DNA from: Flavobacteriia bacterium
Lineage (GTDB): Bacteria; Bacteroidota; Bacteroidia; Flavobacteriales_D; Crocinitomicaceae
NCBI GenBank assembly: GCA_947490145.1
Contig: CANLGD010000008.1
Location: 1 to 64,000 of the forward strand
Reading direction: 5' to 3'
Length of the DNA: 64,000 bases
Shown here: positions 9,376-21,474 of the stretch, one piece after another
Layout of the letters: each line of letters begins with the position of its first letter
How positions within the stretch are numbered: position 1 is the stretch's first letter
Position numbers and translations under genes: made by a program
Notes under the pieces: generated by a model
The model's database searches: none
What the model was told of the DNA's origin: nothing
The model's input: only the letters and a program-made list of their open reading frames with translations

Positions 9376-10254
9376 TTATTTTTTAGATAAAACATAAATT
9401 TGAGATGAATAACCAAAATCTTTTGCTTTTCGATTTGATTTTAAGCCAGTGACAAATGCTTTAACATTTGAACCTCTTTTATATTTTTCTGAAAGCATTG
9501 AAACATAATAGGAATCAAATTTCATTGGTTTCACTATTTCCAATGTCATTCCAAATTGATTGGCTAAGTTTTCGATATCCTTTTTCCTAAAATGATACAA
9601 GTGTCTTGGAGCATCATAAGCCGCCCAACCTTCTTTGTAAACTTGCGCATCATACGATTCTAAATTCGGAACAGCAATAATAAATTTACCACTTGGTTTT
9701 AAAATTTTAGTTATCAATTCAAAATCTCTTTTCAAATGATACACATGTTCCAACACATGCCACATCGTTATAAAATCTTTGGAATGTTCTTGAATTTTAG
9801 AAAGGTTATCTAACGGCAATAAATTAATATCAAAATTAACTTTTGCAAACCTTACTGCATCTTCATCTGGTTCAAGACCAATTACAGAAAATCCCTTTTC
9901 TTTACAAGCATTTAAAAAATGTCCCGTACCTGATCCAATGTCTAACACTTCTTTTCCATTTGAGAGTTCCTTTAAAAGATTCACTTTTTTGGAAAGGGTA
10001 TAATTTCTTACAATATTATATAGACGATTTATAAGTCCTTTTCTAGAAGAGGAATGAGAAACATACACATCACCTTTGTAATATCTTCCAATTATATTTT
10101 CATTAGGAATTGGATTAGTAAAATGAAATCCACAATTATCACAGCTTACAATGGTGAACTTTTCTTTAGTGATCATGTTATCTGTAATATTCATAAACTT
10201 ATTAAAGTTTGTTGAATCACATATCGGGCAGGTATTTAATGTGTTTTGTTCCAC
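9376..10254 (-). CDS. class I SAM-dependent methyltransferase
   Basis: 292 aa; zinc-binding N-terminus (CPICDS...CDNCGF), VLDIGSGTGHFL motif; GTG start at 10254 inside a parS-like palindrome. Confidence 0.88.
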   Translation of the reverse strand: MEQNTLNTCPICDSTNFNKFMNITDNMITKEKFTIVSCDNCGFHFTNPIPNENIIGRYYKGDVYVSHSSSRKGLINRLYNIVRNYTLSKKVNLLKELSNGKEVLDIGSGTGHFLNACKEKGFSVIGLEPDEDAVRFAKVNFDINLLPLDNLSKIQEHSKDFITMWHVLEHVYHLKRDFELITKILKPSGKFIIAVPNLESYDAQVYKEGWAAYDAPRHLYHFRKKDIENLANQFGMTLEIVKPMKFDSYYVSMLSEKYKRGSNVKAFVTGLKSNRKAKDFGYSSQIYVLSKK

Positions 10255-10262
10255 GTGAAACT
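10247..10262. other. candidate parS (ParB-binding) site, variant
   Basis: TGTTCCACGTGAAACT; 15/16 match to consensus TGTTNCACGTGAAACA. Confidence 0.75.
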
Positions 10263-12159
10263 ATCTTCCTAAATAAATTAATAAAACAGAAATATCACTA
10301 GGAGATATTCCACTAATTCTTGATGCTTGACCTAAAGTTACAGGTTGTATATCTGATAACTTTTGTCTTGCTTCTATACTCATACTAGACAATTGGTGAA
10401 AATCAATATCAACAGGAATTTTTAATTCATCCATACGACTAATTTTCATTGCCATATCTTGTTCTCTTAAAATATATCCTTCATATTTAATCTGAATTTC
10501 TGACTGCTCAGGAATATCAGGATGAATTAAAGAATAAGTTGAAACTAACTCACTAATTGTTGAACTCATCTTCTGAAGGTGCTCCATCTTCACTAAAGGA
10601 CGAGTTAAAATTGAAGTAAATTTGACTTGTTGATTAATTTCACTTGAATGTAACTCAGTTAAAATAGGATTAGCCTCGCCAGGAGTTACACCAATAGATT
10701 TTAAGTCAGAAATAAAATCAGAAACACCTTTTTGTTTATTTAATGCTTTTCCTAATTCCAACTCAGATTGCATACCAATAGCATGAGCCAACGGAGTCAA
10801 ACGCAAATCTGCATTATCTTGCCGAAGTAATATTCTAAATTCAGCACGACTAGTAAACATGCGATAGGGTTCTTCAGTACCTTTAGTAATCAAATCATCA
10901 ATTAAAACACCAATGTAAGCATCACTACGAGAAAGTATCAAAGCGTCGTTATCATTGTTTTTCAAATGTGCGTTTATCCCAGCCATCAAACCTTGGCACG
11001 CAGCCTCCTCATAGCCAGTTGTTCCATTAATTTGACCAGCAAAATATAAATTATTTAAAAGTTTTGTTTCTAAAGTGTGTTTCAACTGAGTAGGAGGGAA
11101 GTAATCATATTCAATCGCATAACCAGGACGAAACATTTTAGCTTTTTCAAAACCTTGAATTGATTGCAAAGCCTTAATTTGCACATCCTCTGGAAGAGAG
11201 GTGCTAAAACCATTAACATAAATCTCTACAGTATTCCAACCTTCAGGTTCTACAAAAATTTGATGTCTCTCCTTATCAGCAAAACGATTAATCTTATCCT
11301 CAATACTAGGACAATATCGCGGACCCGTACTTTTAATCGAACCATTGAACATGGGAGAACGATCAAAACCAGTTCTTAATAAATCATGCGTTTCTAAATT
11401 AGTATATGTAACATGACAAGGACGTTGAATAGCTAAAGCTTTAGTATCTGTATAAGAAAACTTACCAGGCAACATATCACCATCTTGTACCTCCATTTTA
11501 GAATAATCTAAAGAACGACCATCAATTCTAGGTGGAGTACCAGTTTTCATTCTACCAGCAACAAAACCATAATTAATTAAATCTTCTGTAATCCCATGAG
11601 AAGCTCTTTCCGCGGCACGTCCACCACCAAATTGCTTTTCCCCTAGGTGAATCAGGCCATTTAAAAAAGTACCATTTGTCAAAATAACAGACTTAGCATA
11701 CACATCAATTCCCAAACTTGTTTTAACTCCAATAACTGAATGCTTTTCAACTATCAATCCTACAGACATATCTTGCCAAAAATCAATATTCATATTACGT
11801 TCTAACAGTAAACGCCATTCTTCAGCAAATTTCATTCTGTCATTTTGAGTTCGAGGAGACCACATAGCAGGACCTTTTGAAAGATTTAACATTCTGAATT
11901 GAATAGCACTCAAATCCGAAACGATACCCGATCCACCACCAAGTGCATCAATTTCACGAACAATTTGACCTTTGGCAACTCCACCCATCGCAGGATTACA
12001 ACTCATTTGAGCGATGGTATTCATATTCATTGTTATCAATAGCACAGAGCTACCCATTTTTGCGGCAGCATTTGCAGCTTCGCAACCCGCATGACCAGCA
12101 CCAACAACAATTACATCATAAGAATTTAACATAAAAAGCAACTTTGAAACGTTCCTCAC
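10261..12159 (-). CDS. mnmG: tRNA uridine-5-carboxymethylaminomethyl(34) synthesis enzyme MnmG (GidA); start probably at MLNSYDVIV (12132)
   Basis: [80 protein letters not shown]. Confidence 0.98.
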
Positions 12160-12181: not shown

Positions 12182-12197
12182 TGTTTCACGTGAAACA
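12182..12197. other. parS (ParB-binding) site, perfect palindrome
   Basis: TGTTTCACGTGAAACA; exact match to the bacterial parS consensus. Confidence 0.9.
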
Positions 12198-12199
12198 AA

Positions 12200-12628
12200 T
12201 TACAAAATTAAATCAGACTTAAACAGATTCAAATAAAAATCTTCTTTAGCACTCATAACTGTTTTGTATTTTACATTTTTATCCTTATATCCACAAAGAT
12301 GTAATACTCCATGAAATAAAATACGCCTTAATTCATCTGCAAAGTTAACATTATTATTACTAGCATTTTCTATTACTCTGTCAACACTAATAAATAAATC
12401 TCCACTTATATATACCTCATCACAATAATCAAAGGTAATAATGTCAGTATAAAAATCATGTTTTAAATATTGTTGATTAATAGATAATAAATATTCGTCC
12501 GAACAAAAGACAAAAGAAATATCTTTAGCCACTAGTCCTTCATTACTAATTAAATCTTTGATGCACTTTTTTACAATTGACTTTTTAAACTTTAAAATAG
12601 GTGTATCAATATAGGAAAAACCAATCAT
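12200..12628 (-). CDS. ybeY: endoribonuclease YbeY (rRNA maturation)
   Basis: 142 aa; zinc-binding region HGVLHLCGYKD; DFYTDIITFDY. Confidence 0.93.
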   Translation of the reverse strand: MIGFSYIDTPILKFKKSIVKKCIKDLISNEGLVAKDISFVFCSDEYLLSINQQYLKHDFYTDIITFDYCDEVYISGDLFISVDRVIENASNNNVNFADELRRILFHGVLHLCGYKDKNVKYKTVMSAKEDFYLNLFKSDLIL

Positions 12629-13080: not shown

Positions 13081-16000
13081 CTAGTTAAAAACATTGAAAT
13101 AATCATTGGCTTTATCTTTATAATACTGTCTAAACACAGGATCAATAGACCTTAACAATTCGATCTGTTTTAACTTTTGGTTATTATACTCATCAATTCG
13201 CTTTTGGTTACTTAAAAACACGTCTTTTCCCACTTTTGATTCTCTTTTTTCTTCATAACCACGCTCCATAAGAGCTTTTTCGCTCTCTAATAATCGTGAC
13301 ATGATATCTTTTTGACGTTTCACCATCTCATTAGAAAAGTTCTTGTTAATCAAATCTTTCTCCTGTTTTTCAAGCTCATTAATCAACGGGTTAAATTGAT
13401 TACCCATGCCTTTTCCCTCCTTATTCAAATCATTTCGCATTTGCTCCAAGCGTTGACGAATAGCAGTTTGTTGCGCTGCCATTTTTGCAATTTCTTTATT
13501 ACCAAGACCCAACATATTTTGACCGCCTTGTCCCTGACCTTGCCCACCAGGTTTCGTGCCACCGGGCTTATCACCAGGTTTAGAACCTTTTTGCATCATC
13601 TCTAATTGTTTCTTCAGCAGTTCCCTCATGTCACCATCTTCACCGTCTCCAGGTTTGGCGCCTTTTCCACCGGGTTTATCACATGATCCTGATCCTGGTT
13701 TCTGAGCGGCTGCTTGTTGTTGCATTTGCTGCAAGGATTCATTTAACATCAATGCTAAATTATTGAAACCAGTCATTACAAATTGCAAATTATTACCCAA
13801 TTCACCCCTACGATGTTCATCAATATTCTCTAAACCGTACTTAAAATTAAGGTTAATATCATTCAATTCCTTGTTAATATAGGAGGCAATTTTAGGTTGT
13901 CGAATAGCTATAGCGTTCAACGAATCCTCAACAATTTTGGTGTCATCAATAATTCTTCGTTGTGACTTACCAAGCTTTGTATAAAATGGATCTTTGACTT
14001 TCACTTTAGCAAAGTTATTCATAATATCTTCTTGGTTAAAACTTAATGTCATTAAGCTCTCAAGAATACTGCGCAATAAGTCCATGTCTTCTTCTTCTTG
14101 CTGTTTGTTAGATTCTTGTTGCATTTGCTCTATTTCCTGAGCCAATTGTTCAATCTTTTTAGCAGATTTTTCTTGATTTTCAGAAGCTTTTTTCTCTTTG
14201 TTCTTAGATAAGTTTTCTTTGGCTTCTTTTAAATCATCAGAAATTTCTTTTTTCATTTCTTCCTGATCACCAAGATTAATTGGTTTCTTTAGTTCATCAT
14301 TTAGCTTCTTTAACTCATTTAAATCTTCCTTAATTTCTTCAAATTTCTTATTGATTTCATCCTGTTTTTTTCCCCCATCCTCTTTAGATAACTTTTTTTT
14401 ATCAATATCTTCCTTCAGTTTTTCCTGCTCTTTAGATAAGTCTTTAAGCTCTTTCACAGCGTCGTCAATCTTCTCATTAACTTGCATCTTCTTAAGCATT
14501 TCAAGACTTCTATCCAGTTGCTTATTGATATCATCAGACTTCATATCAAGCTTTTCTAAGTTTTGTTCCAGCTTATTTTTATCTTGATTTTTCATCATTT
14601 CCTCGAGCTTATTTAATAAATCTTTCAGCTCGTCATCCATAACTTCTTCCAATAGTTGCTGAAGCATTTCTTGCTTATCCAAAAGCTCTTGATCCATTTC
14701 TGAAAGTTGATTTTTCTCCAACAAACTTTCTTGCATTTTCATTTCAAGTTGCTCCAATTCATTTTGCAAACTTTGACGTTCTTCTTTTAATTGATTCACC
14801 TGATTCATCTGATTCCAATCGGTAGATTTGGAGTTTAAAACCTCTTTCTTAAGAGTTTGAATGTCTTTCTTAAATTCAGCAGACTTCTTAATTAAATCTT
14901 TTAGTTGATCTTTAGCATTTGTTTGATCTTCATCTCTTTTTTCATTTAATTCAGTTAACGAAGGAAGTTCATAAATAAATGATTTCGAACGCGAGGATTT
15001 TGCACCGTGCACACCATCATTATCCTTTACGACAAAATAATATTCTATCTTATCATCAACAGAAAGCTTTTCACGACGAAAATCAACTGCGTGACGAAAG
15101 GGTTGAGAACTTCCTGACGGATTTATTATAGATACTCTTTGAGTTGATTTAGTGCCACTTTTTGAAATGATTTCGTAAACAAAATAAAGCGAAGTTAAAC
15201 CATAATCATCTGAAATTTGACCTTCAAAAAAACGCAAAGCATCAGAAATAGAATCTATACTTTCATTCACATCAATGACTGGATATTGATCGTGAACAAT
15301 TTCAATGTTGTAATTCAACGAATCTTTAATGTCCTTTTTTGAATTAAAGAGAATAACAGACATTGGTGTTGAATTAAAAAACTTTTTTGAGAATTTAAAT
15401 CCAATTTTTGAAGAAGTGTATGAAGTATCTTTCCAAGAAAGTTTTGTTTTATTCGTGTTTTTTGTAGCAATACTCCAAGTAACATTTGTACCTTCAGGTA
15501 TAACCAAATCCCCTGCATTCGATACAATTTCATCTTTTTTTCCTAAATAATCGGGATAATCTAAACTCGCCTGAAACTTACCAATTGCAGTTTTAGGAAT
15601 CACAGATACATTATAATATTTAGATTGAAAACCATTTGCCTCAAAATAAAAGTTAGTATTTTCTTTTAATCTCTTTAAAACAAAAAATGAAGAAATTTTA
15701 GATGTTCTATTCATCAAATATTTTCCCGAAGAAGAAACCAAATAAACTTTATCGGGAAGAGAATTTCCTTGCAACTTCAATTCTATTGGGAAATCTTGCC
15801 CTTCTTCAATTTCGAAACTTGTATTTTTAAGAATAAAATTAAATGGAGCTTCTGGTTTAAATTCCTTAGAATAATTAACAACACGTTTTGTTCCCTGCGA
15901 TATTAAGGTAGGATAAAAAACAGCTATAAAAGAAAAAAGAAAAACAACAGGTAAAACATATCTTAGGTACACATAATTCTTTTTTAAATCAATTCCTGAA

Positions 16001-16434
16001 ACAAAGGAAAAAGCTGAAAGAGATTTTGACCGCTGATTAACACTTGCTCTAATTAATTCAAAATTTGCATCATTATTTGTAATTGTATCATTTAACTGTA
16101 AAGTATTTAAAAGTCTATCCGAGATATTTGGAAAAAATTTACCTATTATATTAGCAGCTTGAAAGCGATTTATTCTTCTACCAAATGAATATATTTTAGA
16201 AAGCGGCAGAATAATATATTTGGAAAGAACAAATAAATTCAAACAAATAAATGAAAAGAAAAAGATGGCTCTAACAACTGAAGAAAAACGCCCAAAATAT
16301 TCCAGACAAATGATAAAAAGAAAACTCAATAAGGTAATTCCTACAAAAAAAATAACACCCTTAAACATTTGATTTTTATAATACTTTCTTATAAAAGCAT
16401 CTATCTGAATCAATAAATTATCAAAAGAATTCAT
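13081..16434 (-). CDS. DUF4175-family membrane protein with long charged coiled-coil region
   Basis: 1117 aa; two N-terminal TM segments, long Lys/Glu/Gln coiled coil, Gly/Pro-rich linker; matches Bacteroidota DUF4175 proteins by recollection. Confidence 0.75.
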   Translation of the reverse strand: MNSFDNLLIQIDAFIRKYYKNQMFKGVIFFVGITLLSFLFIICLEYFGRFSSVVRAIFFFSFICLNLFVLSKYIILPLSKIYSFGRRINRFQAANIIGKFFPNISDRLLNTLQLNDTITNNDANFELIRASVNQRSKSLSAFSFVSGIDLKKNYVYLRYVLPVVFLFSFIAVFYPTLISQGTKRVVNYSKEFKPEAPFNFILKNTSFEIEEGQDFPIELKLQGNSLPDKVYLVSSSGKYLMNRTSKISSFFVLKRLKENTNFYFEANGFQSKYYNVSVIPKTAIGKFQASLDYPDYLGKKDEIVSNAGDLVIPEGTNVTWSIATKNTNKTKLSWKDTSYTSSKIGFKFSKKFFNSTPMSVILFNSKKDIKDSLNYNIEIVHDQYPVIDVNESIDSISDALRFFEGQISDDYGLTSLYFVYEIISKSGTKSTQRVSIINPSGSSQPFRHAVDFRREKLSVDDKIEYYFVVKDNDGVHGAKSSRSKSFIYELPSLTELNEKRDEDQTNAKDQLKDLIKKSAEFKKDIQTLKKEVLNSKSTDWNQMNQVNQLKEERQSLQNELEQLEMKMQESLLEKNQLSEMDQELLDKQEMLQQLLEEVMDDELKDLLNKLEEMMKNQDKNKLEQNLEKLDMKSDDINKQLDRSLEMLKKMQVNEKIDDAVKELKDLSKEQEKLKEDIDKKKLSKEDGGKKQDEINKKFEEIKEDLNELKKLNDELKKPINLGDQEEMKKEISDDLKEAKENLSKNKEKKASENQEKSAKKIEQLAQEIEQMQQESNKQQEEEDMDLLRSILESLMTLSFNQEDIMNNFAKVKVKDPFYTKLGKSQRRIIDDTKIVEDSLNAIAIRQPKIASYINKELNDINLNFKYGLENIDEHRRGELGNNLQFVMTGFNNLALMLNESLQQMQQQAAAQKPGSGSCDKPGGKGAKPGDGEDGDMRELLKKQLEMMQKGSKPGDKPGGTKPGGQGQGQGGQNMLGLGNKEIAKMAAQQTAIRQRLEQMRNDLNKEGKGMGNQFNPLINELEKQEKDLINKNFSNEMVKRQKDIMSRLLESEKALMERGYEEKRESKVGKDVFLSNQKRIDEYNNQKLKQIELLRSIDPVFRQYYKDKANDYFNVFN

Positions 16435-18730: not shown

Positions 18731-18801
18731 GGTTTCGTGGCCGAGCGGCTAGGCACCAGTCTGCAAAACTGTGTACAGCGGTTCGAATCCGCTCGAAACC
18801 T
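18731..18801 (+). tRNA. tRNA-Cys(GCA)
   Basis: GGTTTCG/CGAAACC acceptor stem, anticodon loop CTGCAAA flanked by CAGT/ACTG, GGTTCGAATCC T arm, discriminator U. Confidence 0.97.
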
Positions 18802-18806
18802 CAAAG

Positions 18807-19207: not shown

Positions 19208-19987
19208 TTAAACTACTCTAATTCTATTATTCAAATCATCCCTGTAAGAACCCCCAATTGGAATTACTTTTTTATCATTTTCTAAAACTAAATTTGGAAA
19301 ATCAATTGCAACTATTTTATCCAAACGCACAATAAAAGATCTATGAACACGAATGAACTCAGCATTACCCATTTTATTGTCAATATCTTTCATTGTTGAA
19401 TGAATTGTATAGCGAGTATCTAAAGTGTTTATTACCACATAATCTTTTAGAGCCTCTATGAAATAAATATCTTTCGTATTTAATTTCACCAATTTACTAT
19501 TTGATTTAACGAAAATAAAACCATCTACTGCCTCTTTATTATCAACTAAAGAAAATAAATAATCTCTCTCTTTCTCTAACTCACGTGACTTCTTATGTTT
19601 ATACAAAGCCATTTCAATTGAAGTATGTAAATCAATTTCTTTAAAAGGTTTTATTATGTAACCATAAGGTTCTGTAACTTTTGCTTTCGCCAAGGTAGAC
19701 TCATCAGCATAAGCTGTTAAGAAAATAACAGGAATATTTAGCTCTTTTTTCACTATTAAAGAAACTTCAATTCCGTTTATGTCACCTTTCAACATGATAT
19801 CCATTAAAACTATATCAGGACTTTCCTGACGAATAACTTCAAGAGCTTTTTCACCTGTTGCAGCAGCCCCAACTACGTTGTATCCCAATTTTTTTAAACT
19901 GTGCTGAATATCTTTCGATACAATCGATTCATCTTCAACAACAACGACATTAATACTATACATGTATTCACAATTTTTGCTTTTCAA
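19208..19987 (-). CDS. LytTR-family response regulator; probable start MYSINVVVVEDES at 19963
   Basis: REC domain (VVVVEDESIVSKDIQ, DIVLMDIMLKGDINGIE, FLTAYAD, YIIKPF) plus C-terminal LytTR DNA-binding domain. Confidence 0.92.
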   Translation of the reverse strand: MKSKNCEYMYSINVVVVEDESIVSKDIQHSLKKLGYNVVGAAATGEKALEVIRQESPDIVLMDIMLKGDINGIEVSLIVKKELNIPVIFLTAYADESTLAKAKVTEPYGYIIKPFKEIDLHTSIEMALYKHKKSRELEKERDYLFSLVDNKEAVDGFIFVKSNSKLVKLNTKDIYFIEALKDYVVINTLDTRYTIHSTMKDIDNKMGNAEFIRVHRSFIVRLDKIVAIDFPNLVLENDKKVIPIGGSYRDDLNNRIRVV

Positions 19988-20183: not shown

Positions 20184-20338
20184 GCTTTTATTTTCTTTTC
20201 AAAAATGGAATTACCTTTTTAATATAAAAATGGATGGAAATACAACAGTTACTGAAAGTAATGCATAAAAATAGGATTATAAAGCAATAAACAATTTGAA
20301 TAAAAATGCAAATAACAGACAAAGTAAAAAAGCACAAA

Positions 20339-20917
20339 TTATCAACAAAAATGTTAACCTTTTAGAATCATCTCCTTTTCATAAAAATCAAAAAAATGAT
20401 ACTTAACTTTTTAATCTAATTTATTCATTAACAGTACTATTAACTCTCAAATTATAGTCGATTTATTATGGTACGATTTTAATTTTAAATTAGCAAATTA
20501 TTTTTAATTCTGTTTTTAAATAATAAAAAGAAAAGAATTTTTTATAAATTAAAGATTTTATTCTTTTTATTAAAGGTGTTGATAAGTTCATAAATTTATT
20601 TATTTTATTTGAATAATTAACTTATCACATAAATGTATCTATTTATTAACAGTAAAAAGAGTTATAAAAGTCTGATAATTATATTAATTTAATATTTAAT
20701 TAACAATTGTTTAAAACAAGACCTGTTCATAAATAAAAAAACTTTCGTTAACATTTGGTAGATTTTTTTATGTTGATAAATAGTAAGATCTTTCAAATTT
20801 TTTTCTTTTTATATTAAATAATTTTTTCACATGAATATAATAAGTTGATAAAACAAGTCTAAGTTATTACTCTTTTTAAAAGTTTATACACAGAAGAACA
20901 TTAATAACTGTGAATAA
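20339..20917. other. candidate replication origin: AT-rich DnaA-box-like cluster
   Basis: TTATCAACA-type nonamers at 20339-20347, 20577-20585 (rc), 20771-20779 (rc); TTATACACA at 20884-20892; TGTGAATAA (rc TTATTCACA) at 20909-20917; very AT-rich, no ORF; parS sites about 8-10 kb away. Confidence 0.35.
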
Positions 20918-21039
20918 GTTTATTTTAAGAAATATTGATTTTCAGTATATTAACAAAAATTAAAAAAATCAATTGTCGATAATTACCATCGTTTGTTAAT
21001 AAACTTTATCTTTGATGAAATTTGTAAAAGATCAAAAAA

Positions 21040-21474
21040 ATGAAAAATATTATTCCAATTGGATGCGATCACGCAGGGTTTGAATTAAAGACAAAAATAA
21101 TCAATTATCTGGAGAAAAAAGGATATGAAATTAACGATAAGGGATGTTATTCATCAGAAAGTATTGATTATCCAGATTTTGCTCATCCTGTGTCTGAATA
21201 TGTTGAAAACCATAAAAACACGCTAGGGGTTTTGTTGTGTGGAAGTGGAAATGGAATAAATATGACGGCAAATAAACACCAAGGAATTAGAGCTGCTTTG
21301 TGTTGGACTGTAGAAATTGCAAAATTAGCACGTAAACACAACAATGCAAATATATTAACGCTTCCGGCGAGATTTATAAGTGAAGAATTAGCATTGGAAA
21401 TAGTTGATGTTTTTTTTAATACAAATTTTGAAGGCGGAAGACATCAATTAAGAGTTGAAAAAATTGCTTTATAA
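21040..21474 (+). CDS. rpiB: ribose 5-phosphate isomerase B
   Basis: 144 aa; IGCDHAGFELK, VLLCGSGNGINMTANKHQGIRAALCW. Confidence 0.95.
   Translation: MKNIIPIGCDHAGFELKTKIINYLEKKGYEINDKGCYSSESIDYPDFAHPVSEYVENHKNTLGVLLCGSGNGINMTANKHQGIRAALCWTVEIAKLARKHNNANILTLPARFISEELALEIVDVFFNTNFEGGRHQLRVEKIAL

Follow-up and report, generated by a model that had tools for sequence, protein, structure and literature searches.

A Probable parS Pair Flanks mnmG in an Origin-Proximal Region of a Crocinitomicaceae Draft Genome

Introduction

A 16 bp palindrome located in front of mnmG in a Flavobacteriia bacterium raises the question of whether it acts as a chromosomal centromere and which replication origin it would serve. 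The window, i.e., the whole analyzed stretch of DNA (64,000 nucleotides), belongs to a 3.08 Mb draft genome consisting of 127 contigs. A preliminary description of the window, made from its sequence, attributed the palindrome to parS. It overlooked a second site at the mnmG stop codon, a candidate oriC inside the window and a link between parS and mnmG that extends across the phylum.

Palindromic Sites Flanking mnmG

A motif scan of the 64 kb window showed that the 16-mer TGTTTCACGTGAAACA occurs there exactly once (site 1, position 12182–12197) and matches the chromosomal parS consensus TGTTNCACGTGAAACA exactly, as had been claimed in the preliminary description. Its placement in the gap between mnmG and ybeY also agrees with the gene coordinates: the stop codon of ybeY (12200–12628, minus strand) is 2 bp away and the conserved ATG of mnmG is about 50 bp downstream. 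The gene mnmG, or gidA (10261–12159, minus strand; conserved start near 12131), encodes a tRNA uridine-34 modification enzyme (TIGR00136, 816.6 bits), whose nearest relatives among named genomes were found in Crocinitomicaceae and related Flavobacteriales. At 31% G+C, the number of exact matches to the 16-mer calculated for chance is about 2e-5 for the window and about 1e-3 for the whole genome.

A second copy, TGTTCCACGTGAAACT, with two mismatches, was found across the stop codon of mnmG (site 2, position 10247–10262). The two sites are 1.9 kb apart and bracket mnmG. Since 0.72 matches with up to three mismatches are expected in the window by chance, the assignment of site 2 rests on its conservation in relatives. 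Note that site 2 also contains the putative GTG start (10252–10254) of the next gene, which is methyltransferase-like (9376–10254, minus strand). A palindrome near a stop codon might serve as a terminator or RNA hairpin behind mnmG, but folding of the strand gave no greater stability than that of shuffled sequences (z = −0.77), and changes at position 5 of the palindrome are often unmatched at position 12. The hairpin reading of the downstream copy is unsupported by this folding, and we regard it as extremely improbable.

In the whole draft genome, exactly two copies of the 14 bp core GTTYCACGTGRAAC were found, both flanking mnmG, and the reversed control pattern gave no matches. Thus, the sites are not spread around the chromosome, a distribution that the preliminary description had named as evidence against parS. 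Within two mismatches of the 16 bp consensus, one further place was found, namely TGTTTCACCTGAAACG on contig C51, which does not contain the CACGTG core; as a control, the consensus read backwards gave two matches in this genome at the same threshold.

ParA and ParB

According to the preliminary description, parA and parB are not present in the window. None was found among the window proteins checked, and the two genes were located on contig C38, where parA is adjacent to a parB that the contig edge cuts off after 138 residues. The genome therefore has a ParB homologue, the absence of which had also been named as an argument against the parS reading. This ParB ends at the contig edge before its DNA-binding domain, and the specificity residues were read instead in the full-length ParB of a genome of the same genus (G001), which matches the solved structures of Caulobacter ParB and of B. 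subtilis Spo0J and Noc. The parS-type residues are present in it: Arg166 and Gly194 are aligned to R173 and G201, which are reported to be invariant across ParB orthologues (Jalal et al., PMC7383237), whereas Noc has Gln and Arg there. A Noc-binding site (NBS; Noc-type Q173 and R201) was considered and rejected because the site has the parS sequence and because Arg and Gly occupy those positions in the G001 ParB.

The parB gene was found in all relatives tested (21/21). It was also found in genomes without an exact core site, so these few cases cannot be put down to a missing ParB. Several core-less genomes of the order are incomplete, with mnmG also missing from the assembly.

Conservation in the Order and in Bacteroidota

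At least one copy of GTTYCACGTGRAAC was found in 114 of the 119 genomes of the order (own genome included), mostly one to three copies in each, and almost none was found with the reversed control. Sites were listed for 31 genomes of the order, and 71 of these 75 sites were within 500 bp of mnmG, the others being no more than 900 bp away. All 80 related mnmG loci contained a site just upstream of the gene, often two about 30–50 bp apart, and an equivalent of site 2 within about 15 bp of the mnmG 3′ end was present in 30 of them (counted by hand from the list). The core is constant across the 80 loci, and the spacing and copy number vary. The variation in sequence is concentrated at position 5 (T/C), its mirror position 12 (A/G) and the two outermost bases, a pattern that a site composed of two protein-bound halves would be expected to show. 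The classical parS consensus tolerates any base at position 5, which the variation at this position fits.

These data bear on two other explanations. The downstream copy extends across the stop codon of mnmG, as would be the case if these were former parS sites that are kept merely through gene-end overlap and are out of use in segregation. However, the upstream copies are non-coding and their core is kept while the spacing varies, and the own genome contains no other core sites as a replacement, which makes this explanation very improbable. The palindrome might also be an operator for a dedicated mnmG regulator, without the involvement of ParB. Such an operator would fit the position immediately upstream of mnmG in 80/80 family loci and in most of the sampled phylum genomes, as well as the wider gene order around mnmG, which is more variable than the site. 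Nevertheless, the palindrome is the ParB consensus, parB is present in the own genome and in the 21 relatives, copies are also found at the 3′ end of mnmG and the region is close to the origin. In addition, the variable upstream position and copy number fit a fixed operator poorly. The operator is thus improbable, though slightly less so than disused sites.

In the phylum sample, the core was present in 45 of the 46 genomes. The exception, G151, has two copies with one mismatch, 34 and 70 bp upstream of mnmG. Among the 34 phylum genomes whose sites were listed, 33 have one no farther than 500 bp from mnmG; the count covers the listed genomes only, with G131 and G152 outside the list. The sites of G155, G131 and G152 are located away from mnmG. 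The less familiar part of these results is that, in the phylum sampled, parS stays at mnmG, often at both ends, while parAB does not. In other phyla, gidA, gidB and parAB form a group close to the origin, and an inherited position is therefore a simple explanation of parS at mnmG. A statement of the link between parS and mnmG in Bacteroidota was not found in the literature searched, the scope of which did not extend to the work on parS distribution by Livny et al. (2007).

Position of the Replication Origin

In order to place the origin, GC skew was analyzed in six complete or near-complete relatives from the order, with 20 kb sampled approximately every 200 kb. In five of the six relatives, the best skew origin and mnmG were separated by 0.4–4.1% of the chromosome, with permutation p values of <0.02 in four of these and 0.03 in G008. 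The skew fit of G109 was non-significant (permutation p 0.32) and that of G070 had a low amplitude. The dnaA gene was rejected as an origin marker: in the six complete relatives it lies 11–41% of the chromosome from mnmG, and its skew score was worse than that of mnmG in 6/6. Local GC skew within the 64 kb window showed no clear switch and was uninformative.

A candidate oriC was found in the window at 20250–21039. This AT-rich intergenic region contains 12 DnaA-box-like 9-mers, compared with a mean of 1.5 and a maximum of 6 in shuffled sequences (at most one mismatch to TTATNCACA, a 9-mer that may differ from the DnaA preference of this group), and it is overlapped by the 1 kb windows with the lowest G+C content in the whole 64 kb (19–21%). 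It thus combines a DnaA-box cluster with an AT-rich region, as oriC does. It is flanked by rpiB (21040–21474, plus strand), which is a conserved neighbour, and on the other side by a gene for a LytTR-type response regulator (19208–19987, minus strand). Upstream of rpiB, 33 regions contained a mean of 5.2 boxes per 600 bp versus 1.1 in AT-rich control windows of the same loci, and in most related loci no other window was as rich in DnaA boxes as this region.

Around mnmG of G060 and G008, the best DnaA-box cluster and the minimum of the local skew are no more than about 2 kb apart, beside rpiB. The skew minimum of G073 is located just upstream of rpiB, where DnaA boxes are not enriched, and that of G089 about 13 kb from rpiB. 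A skew switch at or near the equivalent place was thus observed in G060, G008 and G073, but not in G089. The replication origin is probably the cluster of DnaA boxes in the AT-rich stretch before rpiB (20.25–21.04 kb). The suggestion that the window is origin-proximal gains support from the skew in complete relatives and from this candidate, which is about 8 kb from the site.

Two other features were observed in this part of the window. A tRNA-Cys gene (18731–18802) lies between folB and the candidate oriC. The gene at 13081–16434 encodes a protein of 1117 aa with a long coiled-coil-like region, for which only a weak SMC match and no Pfam family at an E value of 1e-4 were found; it is kept near mnmG in G060, G008 and G089.

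Proposed Function

The number, conservation and position of the sites, the presence of parAB, the residues of the G001 ParB and the skew-based origin proximity in relatives were available for the assignment. The sequence (an exact consensus), the position (two genomic sites, both at mnmG, close to the origin), the partner genes and the conservation allow us to assume that sites 1 and 2 are very probably an ordinary chromosomal parS pair, through which ParABS would segregate a likely origin about 8–10 kb away. From this we infer that ParB, produced from a parAB operon elsewhere on the chromosome, would bind the two half-sites as a dimer and would load, in a CTP-dependent manner, as a sliding clamp over mnmG and the adjacent genes. 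ParA would then move the newly replicated origin, putatively the DnaA-box cluster upstream of rpiB, by means of the ParB complex.

A dual role, in which the pair is a centromere and ParB loaded at the promoter and end of mnmG also sets mnmG expression, is unlikely. If true, it would tie tRNA modification to origin segregation and would explain why the sites stay with mnmG across the phylum. As a parS pair, the sites also have a practical use: mnmG with flanking parS may serve as a sequence-only marker of the origin region where dnaA fails as a marker. The question raised is why parS keeps to mnmG phylum-wide while parAB sits elsewhere.

Comparison with Known Systems

The gene order oriC-gidA-gidB-parAB is found in other phyla. 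As in that arrangement, mnmG (gidA) and parS are close to the origin in the lineage studied here; however, parAB is located apart from mnmG, and parS is at mnmG. The chromosomal parS sites of the ParABS systems of B. subtilis, Caulobacter and Pseudomonas resemble those described here in the 16 bp consensus, the few copies near the origin and the presence of ParA and ParB in the genome. Unlike in those systems, the two sites here bracket mnmG, and parAB of complete relatives from the order is located neither beside mnmG nor, judging from the skew samples, close to the origin. In gut bacteria, including Bacteroidota, Hi-C analysis indicated that parS clusters mark ori and that dnaA need not be located there (PMC10197239). 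The present case is similar in that parS and GC skew mark ori and dnaA is not always found there. The consulted parts of that study do not mention mnmG, whereas the link of the site to mnmG extends through the phylum sample analyzed here.
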